DNA of 64,000 bases from Enterococcus wangshanyuanii (lineage in GTDB: Bacteria; Bacillota; Bacilli; Lactobacillales; Enterococcaceae): NCBI RefSeq assembly GCF_002197645.1, contig NZ_CP021874.1, positions 682,001-746,000 of the forward strand, in the 5' to 3' direction. The notes beneath the pieces are model-generated. The model did not search any database and was not told where the DNA came from. It saw nothing but the letters and a program-made list of their open reading frames with translations. Shown here one piece after another: positions 2,449 through 15,156 of this stretch; position 1 is the stretch's first letter, and each line of letters begins with the position of its first letter. Made by a program: the position numbers and the translations under genes.

Positions 2449-4785
2449 TTAAAGCTCTTTGATTGTTTTCCCTGCGCGCTTCATTTGGACAAGCCCAATC
2501 AATAACCGAACAACAATATTAATCACCATCATCACAGCAAAAATCGGTAACGTTTGGCTTGTTAAGAAACCAACTTCTAAAATATGATGGAACAACATCG
2601 CCGCAACATAAATACCGCCAATTGTCGTTACTGCAAGGAAAATCCGCAATGGATTAAACGGTAGACATGCCCTGACAACAGCCATACAGCTAATACCGAT
2701 CAACAGATAATACATCAATGTCGTCGTTTCCATTTGAGCGAACTCTTGTCCTTTACCAATGAGATAAACAGCCACGATATTCAAAACAACTAGAACCGCA
2801 TTTATTGAAGCATTTCGTAACGCTGTAGGTAAAAACTTACCCTTGACCTTGCGTTTATCCCCTTCAAATGAAAGGAAGAACGCTGGATAGCCTTCAATAG
2901 CCAAATCGATCAACGTGATTTGGATCGGAATAAATGGAAATGCAATTGCTGTGAACATACAAATCATCGATAAAATAAATGAATAGATCGTTTTGATGAA
3001 AAAGATACTGGCAACTTTCGTGACATTATTGACCACGCGTCTACCTTCAAATAAAACTTCCGGTAACGTTGTAAAATCAGAATCCAATAAGACCAAATTA
3101 GAAATTTGTCTGGTCGCACCGTCTCCTTCAGCCATCGCGATACTACAATCTGCTTCACGTAAAGCTAGAACATCGTTTACACCGTCTCCTGTCATTGCTA
3201 CAACGTGATCATGATCTTTTAATTCACGAACGATCGTCCGTTTTTGCTGAGGCGTCACTCGGCCGAACACCGTATATTCATGAACTGCTTTGCGAACCTC
3301 TGCTTCTGTTTCCATCGTGGATAAATCAATATATGACTCATATCCAAACAAACCAGCACGACGAGCGATATTAGAAACGGTCACTGGATTATCTCCAGAA
3401 ATGACTTTTAGATCGATTCCTTCTTCACGTAAATAAGCCAACGTTTCATTCGCATTTTGACGAATCGGATCATCGATTTCTAATACAGCTAACGGCTCTA
3501 AATAAGGCATCTCTTGTTCATCTAAACGCGTATTCCCAGCGATTCCAAGCATCAACACTCGATACCCGTTTTCTTGCGCATCCAAAACTTCCTTAGGTAA
3601 GCGCTCCGCAGAAAATAATTTTTCCGGTGCACCAAGGTATACTGTCCCAAGCTCAGTAAAGTCGATTGCTCCCCATTTTCTTTCAGAAGAAAATGGTAAC
3701 GTCTGCTCAGCACCATAACGGTTCGATAATTCAAAATACTCTCGAATCGCTTGCATCGTGATATTGTTATCAGTACTTTCAGCTAAATAACTACCGATTA
3801 CTTGCGGAAAGTTCTCGTGATAATCGGCATGAAGCACAGTCACTTTTTGAACTTTCATTTTCCCTTCGGTAATTGTCCCAGTTTTATCTAAACATAAGGT
3901 ATCTACATGAGCTAATGTTTCGATCGAATACATATCCTGAACTAAGATACGTTTTTTAGCTAGTTTCACGACACCTGTTGTCAACGCAATACTAATTAAC
4001 AGAACCAGCCCTTTTGGCAGCATCCCTAATAAAGCTGCAGCTGAAGCAACCACAGAACCTTTTAATCCAGCATCTCTGATCATGAAGCCTTCTAAAAATA
4101 AAATGACCCCTAAAGGAATAATAACTAAACTTGTAAATTTTGATACTTTTCGAATTGAATTCACTAACTCAGATTGAATAGGTTTATGAACTTTTGCTTC
4201 TGCTGTAATTTTGACTGCATAGTTTTCGGCACCTACATGAATAACTTTTGCATAAGCTTGTCCACTCGCTAAAAAGCTACCAGAAAGAAGGATATCTCCT
4301 TGCACTTTTTCGATCAAATCAGATTCCCCAGTCAGTAAGGCCTCATTTGCTTCAACTTTGCCTTCGATCACTTCTAAATCAGAAGGAACCTGTTCCCCTG
4401 CAGCGATCACAACGATATCGTCCATCACTAATTCTTTGGTGTCGATCTCGATTTCTTTGCCATCACGTACAACATGCACACTTTCTTTAGCAACAATCGA
4501 TAACTTTTGTACTAAATTTCTGGCATGGATCTCTTGATAGATCCCCATTCCCATATTGACCAAAATGATTGCCAGAAAGGCCAAATTAGAATATGCGCCA
4601 ACAAAAAATAAACAAATCGCAATCGCAAAGTTTAAAAAATTAAACAAGGTCATTACATTATCGTAAATAATATCTTTCGTTGATTTAGCTACATTTTCTT
4701 CATAATCATTTTGAAGACCTTGTTTCTTTCGCTCTTCTACCTCCGATTGAGTTAGGCCTTGTTTTATATCAAACTTATTTGTCAT
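2449..4785 (-). CDS. cation-translocating P-type ATPase (CtpE-like)
   Basis: Integral-membrane P-type pump of 778 residues. Actuator motif TGES is at 152-155, the phosphorylation loop DKTGTITEG begins at D300, and the hinge TGDGVNDVLALREAD is in the P domain. Two helices precede the actuator, two follow it, and about six come at the C-terminus. The arrangement and the M4-to-DKTG spacer resemble the CtpE-like bacterial pumps, for which calcium transport has been reported in mycobacteria. The M4 motif reads PKGL (257-260) instead of the usual PEGL of Ca/Na/K pumps, so ion choice is uncertain. It lies 29 bp upstream of the NfeD-like/SPFH pair. The ribosome site is GGGAAAC, 7 nt before the ATG. 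Confidence 0.9.
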   Translation of the reverse strand: MTNKFDIKQGLTQSEVEERKKQGLQNDYEENVAKSTKDIIYDNVMTLFNFLNFAIAICLFFVGAYSNLAFLAIILVNMGMGIYQEIHARNLVQKLSIVAKESVHVVRDGKEIEIDTKELVMDDIVVIAAGEQVPSDLEVIEGKVEANEALLTGESDLIEKVQGDILLSGSFLASGQAYAKVIHVGAENYAVKITAEAKVHKPIQSELVNSIRKVSKFTSLVIIPLGVILFLEGFMIRDAGLKGSVVASAAALLGMLPKGLVLLISIALTTGVVKLAKKRILVQDMYSIETLAHVDTLCLDKTGTITEGKMKVQKVTVLHADYHENFPQVIGSYLAESTDNNITMQAIREYFELSNRYGAEQTLPFSSERKWGAIDFTELGTVYLGAPEKLFSAERLPKEVLDAQENGYRVLMLGIAGNTRLDEQEMPYLEPLAVLEIDDPIRQNANETLAYLREEGIDLKVISGDNPVTVSNIARRAGLFGYESYIDLSTMETEAEVRKAVHEYTVFGRVTPQQKRTIVRELKDHDHVVAMTGDGVNDVLALREADCSIAMAEGDGATRQISNLVLLDSDFTTLPEVLFEGRRVVNNVTKVASIFFIKTIYSFILSMICMFTAIAFPFIPIQITLIDLAIEGYPAFFLSFEGDKRKVKGKFLPTALRNASINAVLVVLNIVAVYLIGKGQEFAQMETTTLMYYLLIGISCMAVVRACLPFNPLRIFLAVTTIGGIYVAAMLFHHILEVGFLTSQTLPIFAVMMVINIVVRLLIGLVQMKRAGKTIKEL

Positions 4786-9114: not shown

Positions 9115-9990
9115 TCACTTATTTAACTTTATTTTTATCTCCTCATTAAAACAAGCTGTGCCAGTTATTCCAACCGAATGTGCCCCCTTTTCCCCTCTAG
9201 TAACATGAACTAAAACCTTTCCTGATCTGTTTACATGCTTCCCTTGGAAAACAGTGATTTCTTTTTTTTGATCTGTAGGATAAACATGATTTAAGGCATA
9301 TGCTCCCATCACGCCAGAAGCTGTACCCGTGACAGAATCTTCATTCGTTCCAGAAAAAGGAGAAGAAAAATGCCTTGCGGACATCACAGCATTTTCTTTT
9401 GAGCGTATAGCAAAAGGATGAATCGACGATTTCGGCATTTCAGTCAATAACTCTGGAAACCGCTGAGCATCTGCAGACATTTTATCTAACACATGTTCAT
9501 TTTTGACCGGCACCAGCAAGGTCCATGAGCCTGTATTTCCATATTGAATCGGCAAAATAGGATCAAGATCTGTCCTATCGATTCCTAAACTATTACAAAG
9601 TGCCTCTTTGTCTCCCATAAAGTCAATGAACTTTGGTTTTGCTTGAGTCATTGTGATTTCACATTGTTCATCATTATAAGTGACCGAAAGAAGCCCCGCT
9701 TTCGTTTCAATGACTCGCTTTTGACTTCCTTTTCCATGATATAAAGCAAAAATACTTCCCATCGTCGCATGTCCACATAATGGTGTTTCGTGTCCCGGTG
9801 TAAAATATCGTAATTTGACATCCGCATGATCACTCGAACAACAAAAAACTGTTTCATTAAAACCAACTTTTTTCGCAATTTCCTGCATTTCTTTTGTACT
9901 ATACTGATCACCATCCAAGACAACACCTGCTGGATTTCCTTGACCAATAACTTTAGTAAATGCATCTATTCTTAAAACCGAACACTCCAT
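9115..9990 (-). CDS. PhzF family isomerase/epimerase
   Basis: A diaminopimelate-epimerase-fold protein of 291 residues. Family marks are the N-terminal DAFT...GNPAGVV (about 8-24), the catalytic glutamate in FNETVFC, RYFTPGHETPLCGHAT, and a second-half SVTGTASGVMGAY segment. The ATG at 9990 sits 8 nt after GGGAG and is preferred to an upstream TTG at 9996. PhzF relatives isomerise or epimerise small metabolites, and most are of unknown substrate outside phenazine producers. There are no phenazine genes nearby, so no phenazine role is implied. It is monocistronic, with terminators on both sides. Confidence 0.88.
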   Translation of the reverse strand: MECSVLRIDAFTKVIGQGNPAGVVLDGDQYSTKEMQEIAKKVGFNETVFCCSSDHADVKLRYFTPGHETPLCGHATMGSIFALYHGKGSQKRVIETKAGLLSVTYNDEQCEITMTQAKPKFIDFMGDKEALCNSLGIDRTDLDPILPIQYGNTGSWTLLVPVKNEHVLDKMSADAQRFPELLTEMPKSSIHPFAIRSKENAVMSARHFSSPFSGTNEDSVTGTASGVMGAYALNHVYPTDQKKEITVFQGKHVNRSGKVLVHVTRGEKGAHSVGITGTACFNEEIKIKLNK

Positions 9991-10034
9991 CAACAACCAC
10001 TCCCTTTTTTAGTCCATATCATATAATAAAAAAA

Positions 10035-10073
10035 CATGTACGTCAAAAACAGACTTTCGTTTTGACGTACATG
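10035..10073 (-). terminator. tuf terminator
   Basis: Perfect 14-bp stem CATGTACGTCAAAA / TTTTGACGTACATG, followed on the minus strand by seven T. It lies 17 bp past the tuf stop. Confidence 0.88.
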
Positions 10074-10089: not shown

Positions 10090-11277
10090 TTATTTTTCTA
10101 TTTCTGTAACAATGCCAGATCCAACTGTGCGGCCGCCTTCACGAATTGAAAAGGTCGTTCCTTTTTCAACGGCAATTGGATGGATCAATTCAACATCGAT
10201 CGTTACATTGTCACCTGGCATAACCATTTCAACATTTTCAGGAAGTTCAACAACTCCCGTTACATCCGTTGTTCGGAAATAAAATTGCGGACGATAATTT
10301 GTAAAGAATGGTGTATGACGTCCACCTTCTTCTTTTGTAAGAACATAGACTTCTGCAACAAATTTTGTATGCGGAGTAATAGAACCAGGTTTGGCGATTA
10401 CTTGTCCACGTTCGATTTCATCACGAGTGATTCCACGTAAAAGCACACCAACATTATCTCCTGCTTCCCCATAATCCAATGTTTTTCTAAACATTTCGAT
10501 TCCGGTTACCACAGCTTTTTGTGTTTCTGGTTTAATACCGACGATTTCAATTTCATCGCCAACGCTCACTTTGCCTCGATCGATACGACCAGAAGCAACA
10601 GTTCCCCGTCCCGTAATTGAAAAGACATCTTCGACCGGTAATAATAATGGTTTGTCCGTATCTCTTTCAGGTGTAGGAATGTATTCATCTACTGTATCCA
10701 TCAATTCCATGATCGCAGCTTCTGCTTCTGGGTCTCCTTGTAGTGCTTTTAATGCAGAGCCTTTGATGATTGGTGTGTCATCACCTGGAAAATTGTACTC
10801 ATTAAGTAATTCACGGACTTCCATCTCAACCAAGTCGATCAACTCTTCATCATCTACCAAGTCTGTTTTATTAAGGAAGACGATCAAATATTTAACACCA
10901 ACTTGACGAGACAATAAAATATGTTCTCTTGTTTGCGGCATTGGACCATCAGTTGCTGAAACGACTAAAATCGCTCCATCCATTTGGGCTGCCCCTGTAA
11001 TCATATTTTTCACGTAATCCGCGTGTCCTGGTGCATCGATATGCGCGTAATGACGAGCCTCTGTTTCATATTCCACATGGGCTGTGTTGATTGTGATCCC
11101 ACGTTCTCTTTCTTCTGGTGCTGCATCAATACTAGCATAGTCCTGCGGGTTTGCTAGGCCTTTTTTTCCTAATACTGTAGTGATCGCAGCTGTCAATGTT
11201 GTTTTCCCATGATCGACATGACCGATCGTGCCGATATTTACATGGGGTTTACTTCTGTCATAATGTTGTTTTGCCAT
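10090..11277 (-). CDS. tuf: elongation factor Tu, free-standing streptococcal-type copy (tufB-like)
   Basis: GTPase that delivers aminoacyl-tRNA to the ribosome, 395 residues. G1 is GHVDHGKT (19-26), G3 is DAPGH and G4 is NKTD; domains 2 and 3 are full length. It is not in a str operon: no rpsL, rpsG or fusA adjoin it. Blocks such as [46 protein letters not shown] and [15 protein letters not shown] read like streptococcal or lactococcal EF-Tu as I recall them, whereas E. faecalis TufA has LLSRNVGVPYIVVF and VATGRVERG. It lacks the RRLPSSVNQ insertion of true streptococcal EF-Tu. This fits the horizontally acquired tufB described in several enterococci. It has its own promoter and terminator. 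Confidence 0.95.
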
Positions 11278-11302
11278 AATTTACAAACCTCCTATTTTCT
11301 TC

Positions 11303-11346
11303 AAAGGTTCAATCAAAGGATTTTAAATTGACCTTTATTGACCTTT
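11303..11346 (-). promoter_or_regulatory. tuf leader with two alternative pairing partners
   Basis: In the tuf 5' UTR the 10-mer AAAGGTCAAT occurs twice in tandem (minus strand, 11337-11346 and 11327-11336). Either copy can pair with ATTGAACCTTT (11303-11313), which lies just before the AGGAGG ribosome site. Two mutually exclusive hairpins are therefore possible. Sequence seen, regulation inferred. Confidence 0.4.
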
Positions 11347-11354
11347 GTAATGCT

Positions 11355-11382
11355 ATTATATACCTATTTAAAAAAAGTACAA
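11355..11382 (-). promoter_or_regulatory. tuf promoter
   Basis: Minus-strand TTGTAC (11377-11382), 16-bp spacer, TATAAT (11355-11360). The spacer is AT-rich and the leader is about 70 nt. Confidence 0.7.
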
Positions 11383-12251: not shown

Positions 12252-14240
12252 CTATTTTACTGTTACTTTACCGATCGTATCGTTGATCGCTGTTACTTGA
12301 CCTGATTTAGCTAGATCATAGTTAGCAACGATGTCTTGATTTGTGAATACAACAATCAAATCAGATTTTTTGCCTGCTGCTTCAAGTGCAGCTAGATCGA
12401 TCGTAGCGATCTTATCACCTTGTTTTACTACTTGACCTTCTTCAACATGAAGTGTAAATGGTGCACCTTTTAACTCGACTGTATCTAAGCCCATGTGTAA
12501 TAGTACTTCAATACCAGAATCTGTTTGAATTCCTAAAGCATGCTTGGTTGGGAAAATACTTGTGATTTTACCAGCGACTGGTGTTGTTACTTCACCGTCC
12601 GTTGGAATAACCGCAAATCCGTCACCCATCATTTTTGCTGAAAAAACATCATCTTGTACTTCAGAAATCGGGATAACTTTTCCGTTTGCTACCGCAAACA
12701 ATTCAGTTTCTTTTGTTGTAGCAACAGGTGTTGCTACTGCTTCTTTCACTTCAGGCTTTTTTACAGGTTCACCTGAAATTGGAGCAGCACCGTTACGGAT
12801 TTTATTCATTTCATCTGCAACGAATTGAACTTCAGTTCCAACGATCACTTGAATATTTGTATCATCAATGACTTTCACGCCTGGAACGCCAGTTGCTTTG
12901 ATTTTACCTTGATCGACTTTACTTGTATCAGCAACCGTTAAACGTAGACGTGTTGTACAGTTATCGATAGAAGTAACATTGGCATCGCCGCCAAGACCTT
13001 GGTAGATTCTGCTTGCTAGTACAGCAAATTTGTTATCTCCGCTAGCAGCAACATCTGGAGTTTCTTCGCCTTCACCTTCTTCACGACCTGGAGTCATCAA
13101 GTTGAATTTCTTGATTGCAAAGTCGAATACTACGAAGTAAAGAACAGCCATTACTAATCCTTGAACGATCAACATATACGGTTGGTTCGCGATTGGATTA
13201 CGTAAGCTTAACACAAAGTCGACTAGTCCAGCACTAAATGCAAAACCTGCTGTCCAGTGGAAAATTGCAGAGATGAATAATGAAATACCTGTCAAAATAG
13301 CATGTAATACATATAATGGCCATGCTACGAACATGAATGAAAATTCTAATGGTTCAGTAATACCTGTGAAGAATGAAGCAAAAGCTGCTGCGATCATCAA
13401 TGAAGCAGTTGCTTTTTTCTTTTCCGGACGAGCGTTACGATAAATCGCGTATGCTCCAGCTGGTAAACCAAACATCATCATTGGGAAGAACCCAGCTTGA
13501 TACATACCAGTGACACCTTTTTCACCAGCACCTGACAAGAAGTTTCCGATATCGTTGATACCAGCTACGTCAAACCAGAATACTGAGTTTAAAGCATGGT
13601 GTAAACCTGTCGGAATCAATAAACGGTTAAAGAATCCGTAAAGACCAGCACCAACAGCACCCAATTTAGAGATAGATTCACCAAAAGTTACTAAACCGGA
13701 GAATACTACTGGCCAAACAAAGAACAATACGCCAGAAGCTACTAACATTGCTAGAGCTGTCATAATTGGTACTAATCGTTTTCCACTAAAGAAGGATAGC
13801 GCCATTGGTAATTTCACCTGACTGAAACGATTATACATTGCTGCAGCAATCAATCCAGATAAAATACCGATAAAGGCATTACCGATTTTTGCAAATGATG
13901 GATCGACTTGCTCAACAGGAATTCCTTTCATTGCGCCAACAGCTGCCGTTGAAAGGAGCGTCGTTACAACTAAGAAGGCTACCAGCCCACTAAGAGCTGC
14001 CGCACCATCTTTATCTTTGGACATTCCCAATGCTAAACCAACCGCGAATAATACAGGCAGGTTATCAATGATCGCGCCCCCTGCTTTTACTAAGAAAACA
14101 GATAAGAAATTCGGATCTCCTAATCCGGTCATTACGTTTGGATCGATCCAGTAGCCAATCCCCATTAAAATCGCTGCTGCCGGTAATACGGCTACAGGAA
14201 GCATCAATGAACGTCCCATTCTTTGCATGTATGCTTTCAT
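12252..14240 (-). CDS. PTS sugar transporter EIICBA, glucose/N-acetylglucosamine family
   Basis: A single-chain phosphotransferase permease of 662 residues that imports and phosphorylates a hexose or amino-hexose. Order: EIIC membrane domain (1-385, with GITEPLEFSF near 293-302), EIIB with active cysteine C428 (DNCTTRLRL) and EIIA with phospho-histidine H582 (LLHMGLDTVEL) and partner H567. The EIIC end KKFNLMTPGRE resembles NagE, so N-acetylglucosamine is my first guess and glucose (PtsG) the alternative. The BglG-type antiterminator gene lies 22 bp upstream in the same direction, a glcT-ptsG-like arrangement. Confidence 0.93.
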   Translation of the reverse strand: MKAYMQRMGRSLMLPVAVLPAAAILMGIGYWIDPNVMTGLGDPNFLSVFLVKAGGAIIDNLPVLFAVGLALGMSKDKDGAAALSGLVAFLVVTTLLSTAAVGAMKGIPVEQVDPSFAKIGNAFIGILSGLIAAAMYNRFSQVKLPMALSFFSGKRLVPIMTALAMLVASGVLFFVWPVVFSGLVTFGESISKLGAVGAGLYGFFNRLLIPTGLHHALNSVFWFDVAGINDIGNFLSGAGEKGVTGMYQAGFFPMMMFGLPAGAYAIYRNARPEKKKATASLMIAAAFASFFTGITEPLEFSFMFVAWPLYVLHAILTGISLFISAIFHWTAGFAFSAGLVDFVLSLRNPIANQPYMLIVQGLVMAVLYFVVFDFAIKKFNLMTPGREEGEGEETPDVAASGDNKFAVLASRIYQGLGGDANVTSIDNCTTRLRLTVADTSKVDQGKIKATGVPGVKVIDDTNIQVIVGTEVQFVADEMNKIRNGAAPISGEPVKKPEVKEAVATPVATTKETELFAVANGKVIPISEVQDDVFSAKMMGDGFAVIPTDGEVTTPVAGKITSIFPTKHALGIQTDSGIEVLLHMGLDTVELKGAPFTLHVEEGQVVKQGDKIATIDLAALEAAGKKSDLIVVFTNQDIVANYDLAKSGQVTAINDTIGKVTVK

Positions 14241-14262
14241 TTTTGTTTCTCCCCTTACACTT

Positions 14263-15096
14263 TTATTTGGTCATCCTCAAGCGTTCGATGTGAATCGCCA
14301 GATAACCTAATTCTTCATTTGGAACTTGATAATGAAAATTCCTCATTAACAAAACCTGGACTTTTTTAGAGATTTCATAGCTCTCCGCATATTTCTTGCG
14401 GACTACATCTAAAATTTCATCATCCAGTACTGCATATTGATTCTGTTGAAAACGGTGAATAAACAAGCGCAAATGATTGACTAGCCTAGAATAACTCAAA
14501 CTCATCTTTTCATCGTGAATATTGATCCCCAATTCTTGCTCGATTAAATGAATAATTTCTGAAACGATTGTGACTTCACGAATACTTTTACTATTATCCG
14601 TCCGCCCGCTGCGAGCACTATGAATATGGATCGCAATATAACCTGCTTCGTCGTAGCTAAATGGAATTTCCAATGTTTGCGTCAAATACTCAACAGCCCA
14701 TTGTGCTATCGAAAATTCTTCACTGTAAAGAATCTCGATCTCATTTAAGAGTTTATTTCGTACAATAATATTGTTTTGAATATTTTCAGCAGCAAAAGCA
14801 ATGTGATCACTTAGCCCGATATTGATATGCTCATTTAGTTTTTCACCTAAAACCATTTCAGCATGTGCAATGATTTCTTCTGTTACAAAGAAATATTTCT
14901 CGTCGATTTGCGATAATAGAACCTGTAGTTTTTTTACACCATCTGGTTCCATCACAAACATCCGCTCCACCTGTTGCGGGAATAACAAGTCATTTTTCTT
15001 CTTGTTAAAGCCCACGCCTTTGCCAACAGCTACCTTTTCCTGCCCGACATCTTCAACAAGTACTGCATTTTGATTTAGCACCTTTTTGATTTTCAT
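14263..15096 (-). CDS. BglG/LicT-family transcriptional antiterminator (PRD)
   Basis: An RNA-binding antiterminator of 277 residues controlled by PTS phosphorylation. It has an N-terminal CAT RNA-binding domain (MKIKKVLNQNAVLVED...GKGVGFNKKKND, 1-55), then PRD1 and PRD2, with conserved histidines visible in SDHIAFA, IAIHIHSARSG, NHLRLFIHRF and LAIHIERL. ATG 15096 with AGAGGA is preferred over an upstream start at 15132. It precedes the EIICBA gene and very likely controls the operon through a RAT-type site in its own leader. Specificity (GlcT- or LicT-like) cannot be settled from sequence alone. Confidence 0.92.
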   Translation of the reverse strand: MKIKKVLNQNAVLVEDVGQEKVAVGKGVGFNKKKNDLLFPQQVERMFVMEPDGVKKLQVLLSQIDEKYFFVTEEIIAHAEMVLGEKLNEHINIGLSDHIAFAAENIQNNIIVRNKLLNEIEILYSEEFSIAQWAVEYLTQTLEIPFSYDEAGYIAIHIHSARSGRTDNSKSIREVTIVSEIIHLIEQELGINIHDEKMSLSYSRLVNHLRLFIHRFQQNQYAVLDDEILDVVRKKYAESYEISKKVQVLLMRNFHYQVPNEELGYLAIHIERLRMTK

Positions 15097-15156
15097 AAAC
15101 ATTCCTCTTCTGCAGAAGTAGATCGTCCGCATTCACGTGCCAGAGCAACAAAAAAA

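Follow-up and report, generated by a model that had tools for sequence, protein, structure and literature searches.

A second, free-standing EF-Tu gene of Enterococcus wangshanyuanii with a CtsR-type operator at its promoter

Many enterococci reportedly carry, beside tufA, a second tuf gene that is divergent and streptococcal-like and that is absent from E. faecalis. Under stress, some ribosomal proteins give way to alternative forms that lack the zinc-binding cysteines. EF-Tu is among the most abundant bacterial proteins according to the available part of PMC6822514, where the second tuf of enterococci is treated as known with reference to Ke et al. (2000, J Bacteriol 182:6913), to whom tuf transfer within enterococci is also ascribed. 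The accessible portion of PMC5727370 gives E. hirae R17 two EF-Tu proteins, the accession of one adjoining that of an MprF. The CtsR regulon of B. subtilis, as given in the available part of PMC6943732, consists of ctsR-mcsA-mcsB-clpC, clpE, clpP and clpX; it is strongly induced by allicin, and B. subtilis TufA is S-thioallylated at the conserved Cys83 (PMC6943732, same portion).

The gene described here, tufB, was found in a window of 64,000 nt (the whole stretch of DNA analysed) from Enterococcus wangshanyuanii. It resembles the second tuf of Ke et al. (2000) in being a divergent, streptococcal-like tuf beside tufA, and differs in that it stands in a species group near E. faecalis; in the parts of the second-tuf literature available, neither a CtsR-type operator nor a missing cysteine is mentioned. 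The single EF-Tu of Streptococcaceae-type and Lactobacillus-type genomes belongs to the same lineage and is likewise cysteine-free (21/21), but a CtsR box was found before none of 18 such genes at 10 bits of the matrix described below. The likeness to alternative ribosomal proteins is that of a cysteine-free translation paralog that stress would turn on; theirs answers zinc starvation through Zur, whereas heat or thiol stress and CtsR are proposed here. With the CtsR regulon the locus shares the same heptad repeat at the promoter and an intact CtsR in the genome, but no translation factor stands among the B. subtilis targets named in the available part of PMC6943732, and tufB is proposed as one. 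The second tuf of enterococci is already in print, and what is new here is the CtsR-type promoter control proposed for it. In the accessible portions of the openly licensed literature we found neither a connection of CtsR to the promoter of a tuf gene (PMC6822514, PMC12844089, PMC6251228, PMC8153452, PMC6943732 and PMC7754856 included) nor a functional account of the two divergent enterococcal EF-Tu forms.

The tufB reading frame is intact, with 395 codons of EF-Tu, and its product scored 739 bits against NCBIfam TIGR00485 (full-length, curated equivalog; cut-off 522) with GTPase motifs intact. An earlier note on this DNA had rightly described the main points of the gene, a second, free-standing, streptococcal-like tuf. 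The count of tuf genes in the full genome (4.16 Mb, 5 contigs), which that note had proposed as a check, gave two rather than one: tufB and a tufA of 80% identity to it at C1:2065639-2066823. Since tufA lies 141 nt behind fusA in the str operon and no fusA stands upstream of tufB, the placement of tufB outside a str operon was borne out. G+C was 0.417 in tufB and 0.421 in tufA. Streptococcal EF-Tu is 85% identical to tufB, compared with 80% for the genome's own tufA, so the proposed likeness is real. All four protein blocks that had been put forward for it are in the translation and three differ from the genome's own tufA, but the fourth, DRSKPHVN, is also in that tufA. The span 10090..11382 given for the gene is correct as to its gene part, which ends at 11277; position 11382 is the outermost base of the -35 hexamer.

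A promoter and a terminator of tufB's own, both claimed earlier, were located (Table 1): the -10 hexamer is perfect and is accompanied by a weak -35, and none of 200 shuffles folded as well as the terminator hairpin, which is followed by a T run. A consensus scan for promoters and terminators listed neither of them, the -35 being weak and the terminator loop long. The leader had also been called hairpin-capable, but its fold was not significant (z -1.3; 19 of 200 shuffles did equally well or better). Relatives differ in the stretch from the repeat to the ribosome-binding site, and the conserved part of the leader is the direct repeat. A leader hairpin acting as an RNA regulator was rejected, the fold being weak and not conserved.

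Table 1. Positions of tufB, its signals and its flanking genes in the window
Feature	Position	Strand	Basis
Intrinsic terminator of tufB, 14-nt arms then T run	10035..10073	-	Fold z -4.6
tufB, free-standing EF-Tu, 395 aa, cysteine-free	10090..11277	-	ORF; G-domain motifs and SAL readable in translation
Ribosome-binding site AGGAGG	11288..11293	-	Sequence
CtsR-type heptad direct repeat GGTCAAT-AAA-GGTCAAT, just downstream of -10	11327..11343	-	Comparison with clp boxes
-10 hexamer TATAAT (perfect)	11355..11360	-	Sequence, upstream comparison
Weak -35 hexamer TTGTAC, 16 nt from -10	11377..11382	-	Sequence; not listed by consensus scan
PhzF-family gene	9115..9996		
N-acetylglucosamine-type PTS gene	12252..14240		

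The repeat in the tufB leader reads GGTCAATAAAGGTCAAT and matches the boxes before ctsR-clpC, clpP and clpE of the same genome, whose period of 10 it shares. By the CtsR consensus, the repeat is taken to be of the CtsR operator type. Its position is that of the predicted core promoter or the start of transcription, and a direct repeat just after the -10 is common to the upstream sequences of relatives. The pattern RGTCARNNNNRGTCAR had a single match in the window, the tufB repeat. A whole-genome scan for RGTCAANNNNRGTCAA gave 10 matches, compared with 3 for the reversed pattern; four lie less than 100 nt from a gene start, those of clpP, a clpP paralog, clpE and tufB. The other six comprise four in long ORFs, one (L293) without a long ORF and one on a small contig (L297, G000:C5:43318-43333), where the repeat GGTCAATAAAAGTCAA lies 192 nt before a 118-aa ORF and could be chance or another CtsR target. 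The single CtsR encoded in the genome contains both Pfam domains, and its gene is followed by clpC; this operon has a box of the same type, GGTCAGTATTAGTCAAG, immediately following its -10, so ctsR itself uses the GGTCAG form that most tufB of the genus have. A box of this kind precedes clpP in every one of the 22 genomes of the genus code, and in four relatives the clpP box is letter-identical to the tufB box of the window, on the opposite strand relative to the gene. A second ClpP-type gene of 195 aa (L289 1592-2179 (+); C1 about 138,146-138,733) scored above the NCBIfam PRK12553 cut-off, and a perfect heptad repeat lies 74 nt before its start. Neither the CtsR-type operator nor the missing cysteine of the product had figured in the earlier account of the locus.

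For the comparison across the family a matrix was made from 16 distinct boxes of ctsR, clpP, clpP-paralog and clpE genes, with no tufB in training, and 250 nt upstream of each gene was scanned. At 10 bits the box was found before tufB in 49 of 54 rows (53 sources, as G074 was entered twice; the tufB sets exclude G019 with its broken frame) and before 5 of 5 second copies (Isobaculum, G137, G110, G115, G121). The corresponding counts were 0/24 for tufA, 0/18 for single-copy-type tuf (15 counted as single) and 6/682 for control ORFs, after removal of 9 controls that had the tufB box itself as their best match. The Fisher p at this threshold, 9e-64, is overstated, the rows being related. Raising the threshold to 14 bits left 35/54 tufB and 0/682 controls; separation was poorer at 8 bits (tufB 51/54, single-copy-type 2/18, tufA 1/24, controls 33/682). 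An earlier matrix of 7 distinct boxes, one of them from ctsR, gave 45/54 tufB and 8/682 controls at 10 bits. Each of the 18 intact tufB in this genus code reached at least 13 bits, and the misses at 10 bits were one row of the 5 from genus code g3 and every row, four in total, of g10, g12 and g15.

The placement of the box is not uniform. In this genus it lies just after the -10, unlike the arrangement in 8 of the 11 further genus codes with tufB, where it sits exactly between TTGAC and TATAAT in a promoter pointing at tufB; with two arrangements, the box has moved or been gained more than once. A TTGAC-box-TATAAT pattern with two mismatches allowed was matched in 38 of 105 genomes, at one site each, always on the strand of tufB and 62-169 nt ahead of the gene, with zero reversed-control matches and in 0 of 25 genomes without tufB; having been written from known tufB promoters, it is independent only in its uniqueness and in the genomes not used to write it. 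Within g3 it was reached in just 2 of 20 genomes. The box accompanies tufB through different neighbourhoods, and in nine rows the stretch that holds the box is common to tufB and a neighbouring gene, with the -35 and -10 pointing at tufB; the neighbour may be a second target of the putative operator. A CtsR match was obtained in 101 of the 105 family genomes, two of them (G034, G051) matching part of the CtsR domain only. Three of the four genomes in which no CtsR was found carry tufB (G029, G066 and G093; G029 and G066 are rated 99% complete).

Two tuf matches were found in 19 of the 22 genomes of this genus code (one frameshifted, in G019), so the presence of the gene here is not unusual. 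A tufB-type copy (best E below 1e-230, identity 85% or more) is carried by 80 of 105 family genomes, in 12 of 17 genus codes; G093 (76% complete) has the tufB type alone. Of the remaining genomes, 24 have a single tuf, which belongs to the other type, and the last (85% complete) gave no match at the threshold. Named carriers are E. ureasiticus DSM 23328 (98%), Enterococcus sp. MJM16 (93%) and E. gallinarum, and Isobaculum melis has a tufB-type copy (96%) alongside its str-operon tufA. G027, which is E. faecalis by 100% identity over 5,200 nt to a named record, has one tuf, as had been predicted for that species, and the host of the present gene is therefore another species, the first of two possibilities raised earlier. 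The E. gallinarum K205-4a tufB lies, with dnaG and rpoD, in a record called a 484-kb plasmid, and the str operon of an E. faecalis lies in a 748-kb 'plasmid' (NZ_CP143580.1); both records are probably pieces of chromosome.

The genes flanking tufB are entered in Table 1. The PTS gene is of the N-acetylglucosamine IIBC type and adjoins a GlcT/LicT-kind antiterminator (window 12252-15132; below curated cut-offs). Also near tufB are mprF, a hydrolase and a lysozyme-like gene, a neighbourhood that recurs at tufB in several genus codes and continues to dnaG and rpoD; the adjoining accessions in E. hirae R17, as given in the available portion of PMC5727370, fit it. G008 has the flanking PTS and PhzF genes at the same site and no tufB match, and G017 has there a 117-nt match of 67% identity to the 3' end of tufB (E 8.5e-4; L269 about 4308-4424). 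In G019 the tufB frame is broken near the start (L180 7804-8990), which may be a sequencing error. These three look like losses from shared inheritance; the broken frame of G019 and the decayed 3' remnant of G017 have the appearance of loss in progress. The mprF region of E. faecalis has a different arrangement, and that species may represent another such loss. In G013 the mprF ortholog that neighbours tufB elsewhere was not found. The gene is dispensable, since E. faecalis, G008, G017 and G019 lack it or have it in broken form.

A protein tree of 100 rows was built from sequences chosen among those fetched, 15 near-copies having been dropped beforehand. One branch (100/100, length 0.38) parted 52 str-operon from 45 free-standing rows, and three rows at contig edges, their location unscored, fell on the free-standing side; the bootstrap was unsettled (0.985), and no branch separated the chosen outgroup from the rest. 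The free-standing side holds Streptococcaceae-type and Lactobacillus-type EF-Tu, the enterococcal tufB and the second copies of Isobaculum and its relatives (the labels Streptococcus-type, Lactobacillus-type and relatives of Isobaculum were assigned by search centre and tree position). The tree that the earlier note had asked for thus places tufB outside tufA, and holding it with six str-operon tuf of its own genus code and E. faecalis cost 207.6 log units (AU p 5.5e-5).

The same tree bears on the suggestion that enterococci took tufB up from a streptococcus, a statement about origin that is compatible with CtsR control. Streptococcal EF-Tu is nearer to tufB than the genome's own tufA is, and the free-standing lineage is parted from the str-operon lineage by one long, fully supported branch; yet tufB lies beside the Streptococcaceae and not inside them, joining it with the four Streptococcus-type rows alone gave p 0.033 in an exploratory test (T5), and the lineage also holds lactobacillus EF-Tu and the second copies of Isobaculum relatives. 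A simple transfer of this kind is unsupported, and uptake from a streptococcus seems somewhat less likely than not; 'streptococcal-like' is correct as a likeness, and 'from streptococci' is at most a possible origin. The inner groupings (an enterococcal tufB clade; tufB with Streptococcaceae; tufB with the Isobaculum-relative copies) gave p 0.30, 0.34 and 0.31, and like the Streptococcus-type test they were chosen after the first tree was known. Transfer out of a stem lineage is another possible origin, and so is an ancient duplication followed by losses (Lathe and Bork 2001, cited after the available part of PMC6822514).

The Isobaculum tufB groups with the tufB of this genus code, with 81-84% nucleotide identity to the nearest members, which suggests, from sequence, an old exchange between families. 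That of I. melis (L199 995-2179, near the contig start) has 96% amino acid identity and the same operator arrangement; its contig is short and may be contamination. Genes that by eye look like purE-purK-purB precede the second tuf of three Isobaculum relatives, and G196 and Pilibacter termitis have their single tuf in a similar place, a gene order common to the two groups (seen in loci L200-L202, L204 and L013).

Over 45 pairs of 10 genomes, dN/dS was 0.020 for tufB and 0.037 for tufA; the former value shows that the protein is kept under strong purifying selection. Synonymous divergence over the same pairs was 0.95 for tufB against 0.075 for tufA, and higher still than that of tufB in most of its neighbouring genes. 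Codon adaptation was 0.603 for tufB, 0.809 for tufA and 0.511 for the local median (46 ORFs, 9% at or above tufB). In 11 of 11 genomes the tufB value lay below that of tufA and above the local median, so tufB is not a silent gene; its higher synonymous divergence and lower codon adaptation fit a gene expressed less than tufA. By these measures tufB is a used EF-Tu, with probably lower expression than tufA in growth.

Cysteine is absent from all 54 TufB rows (G074 counted twice), and also from the 5 second copies and from the 21 other rows of the free-standing lineage (17 of the 21 genomes were counted and had one tuf each; L011, L012, L015 and L026 were taken as single-copy uncounted). The lack is a trait of the whole free-standing lineage that was not gained for a stress role. 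Cys82 is present in tufA of tufB-bearing genomes in 27 of 27 cases. Of the other str-operon tuf, 8 of 9 from family members lacking tufB have it, as do 28 of 31 from outside the family. In the 396-residue EF-Tu of three Bacilli the first cysteine stands at position 83, in 395-residue ones at position 82.

The operator-like repeat, its company with tufB across the family and the intact ctsR lead us to consider it likely that tufB is a working second EF-Tu, repressed by CtsR and induced by stress through the CtsR-type operator. The gene belongs to the free-standing tuf lineage without cysteine from which streptococci and lactobacilli also have their EF-Tu, and most family genomes keep it beside the str-operon tufA. 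During normal growth CtsR on the box would hold tufB low and tufA would supply EF-Tu; heat or thiol stress would inactivate CtsR, tufB would be induced together with clpC, clpE and clpP, and the induced TufB would supply EF-Tu when the tufA protein is damaged. CtsR binding, repression, induction and benefit are what we infer here from the gene and its lineage, from the sequence, position and distribution of the operator, and from the intact ctsR.

The gene might instead provide an extra dose of EF-Tu expressed in growth, with a repeat bound weakly or not at all by CtsR and of little effect. Codon adaptation above the local median in all 11 genomes, its closeness to that of tufA in G028, G066 and G088, and the strong core promoter elements of other genera (TTGAC and TATAAT) agree with this. 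Such a role would not account for a box that is kept over deep divergence and changed neighbourhoods, that was not found before tufA or single-copy-type tuf, and that lies exactly between -35 and -10; nor does a synonymous divergence far above that of tufA fit it well, and we regard it as unlikely.

A role as a resistance copy against EF-Tu inhibitors (elfamycins) is very improbable: at 14 elfamycin resistance positions in E. coli numbering, mapped by offset and including the kirromycin site 124, tufB and tufA have the same majority residue in 13, position 124 being Q in 33/33 tufB and N in 23/28 tufA, and elfamycin resistance is unsupported by the residues at these sites. A table for E. hirae R17 does list both EF-Tu as kirromycin/elfamycin related (available part of PMC5727370), but with drugs of the kirromycin kind the non-resistant copy is dominant and one resistant copy would not protect, although for drugs that block ternary complex formation it could (available part of PMC6685928).

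With stress induction through CtsR as the preferred reading, the induction of the B. subtilis CtsR regulon by allicin and the S-thioallylation of Cys83 allow the operator and the missing cysteine to be joined in one hypothesis, in which the stress-induced EF-Tu would be out of reach of thiol reagents. The EF-Tu pair of enterococci and some Isobaculum relatives might, tentatively and with more doubt than confidence, consist of a growth form with a reactive Cys82 (DCPGH; the counterpart of B. subtilis Cys83) and a CtsR-induced, cysteine-free form that sustains translation under thiol or heat stress, when the growth form is blocked.

If CtsR control of tufB is true, a translation factor would be added to a regulon known for proteases, and tuf would be unsafe as a reference gene in stress work on tufB-bearing species. 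The second tuf would then be a possible part of enterococcal stress hardiness and not a curiosity of gene transfer.
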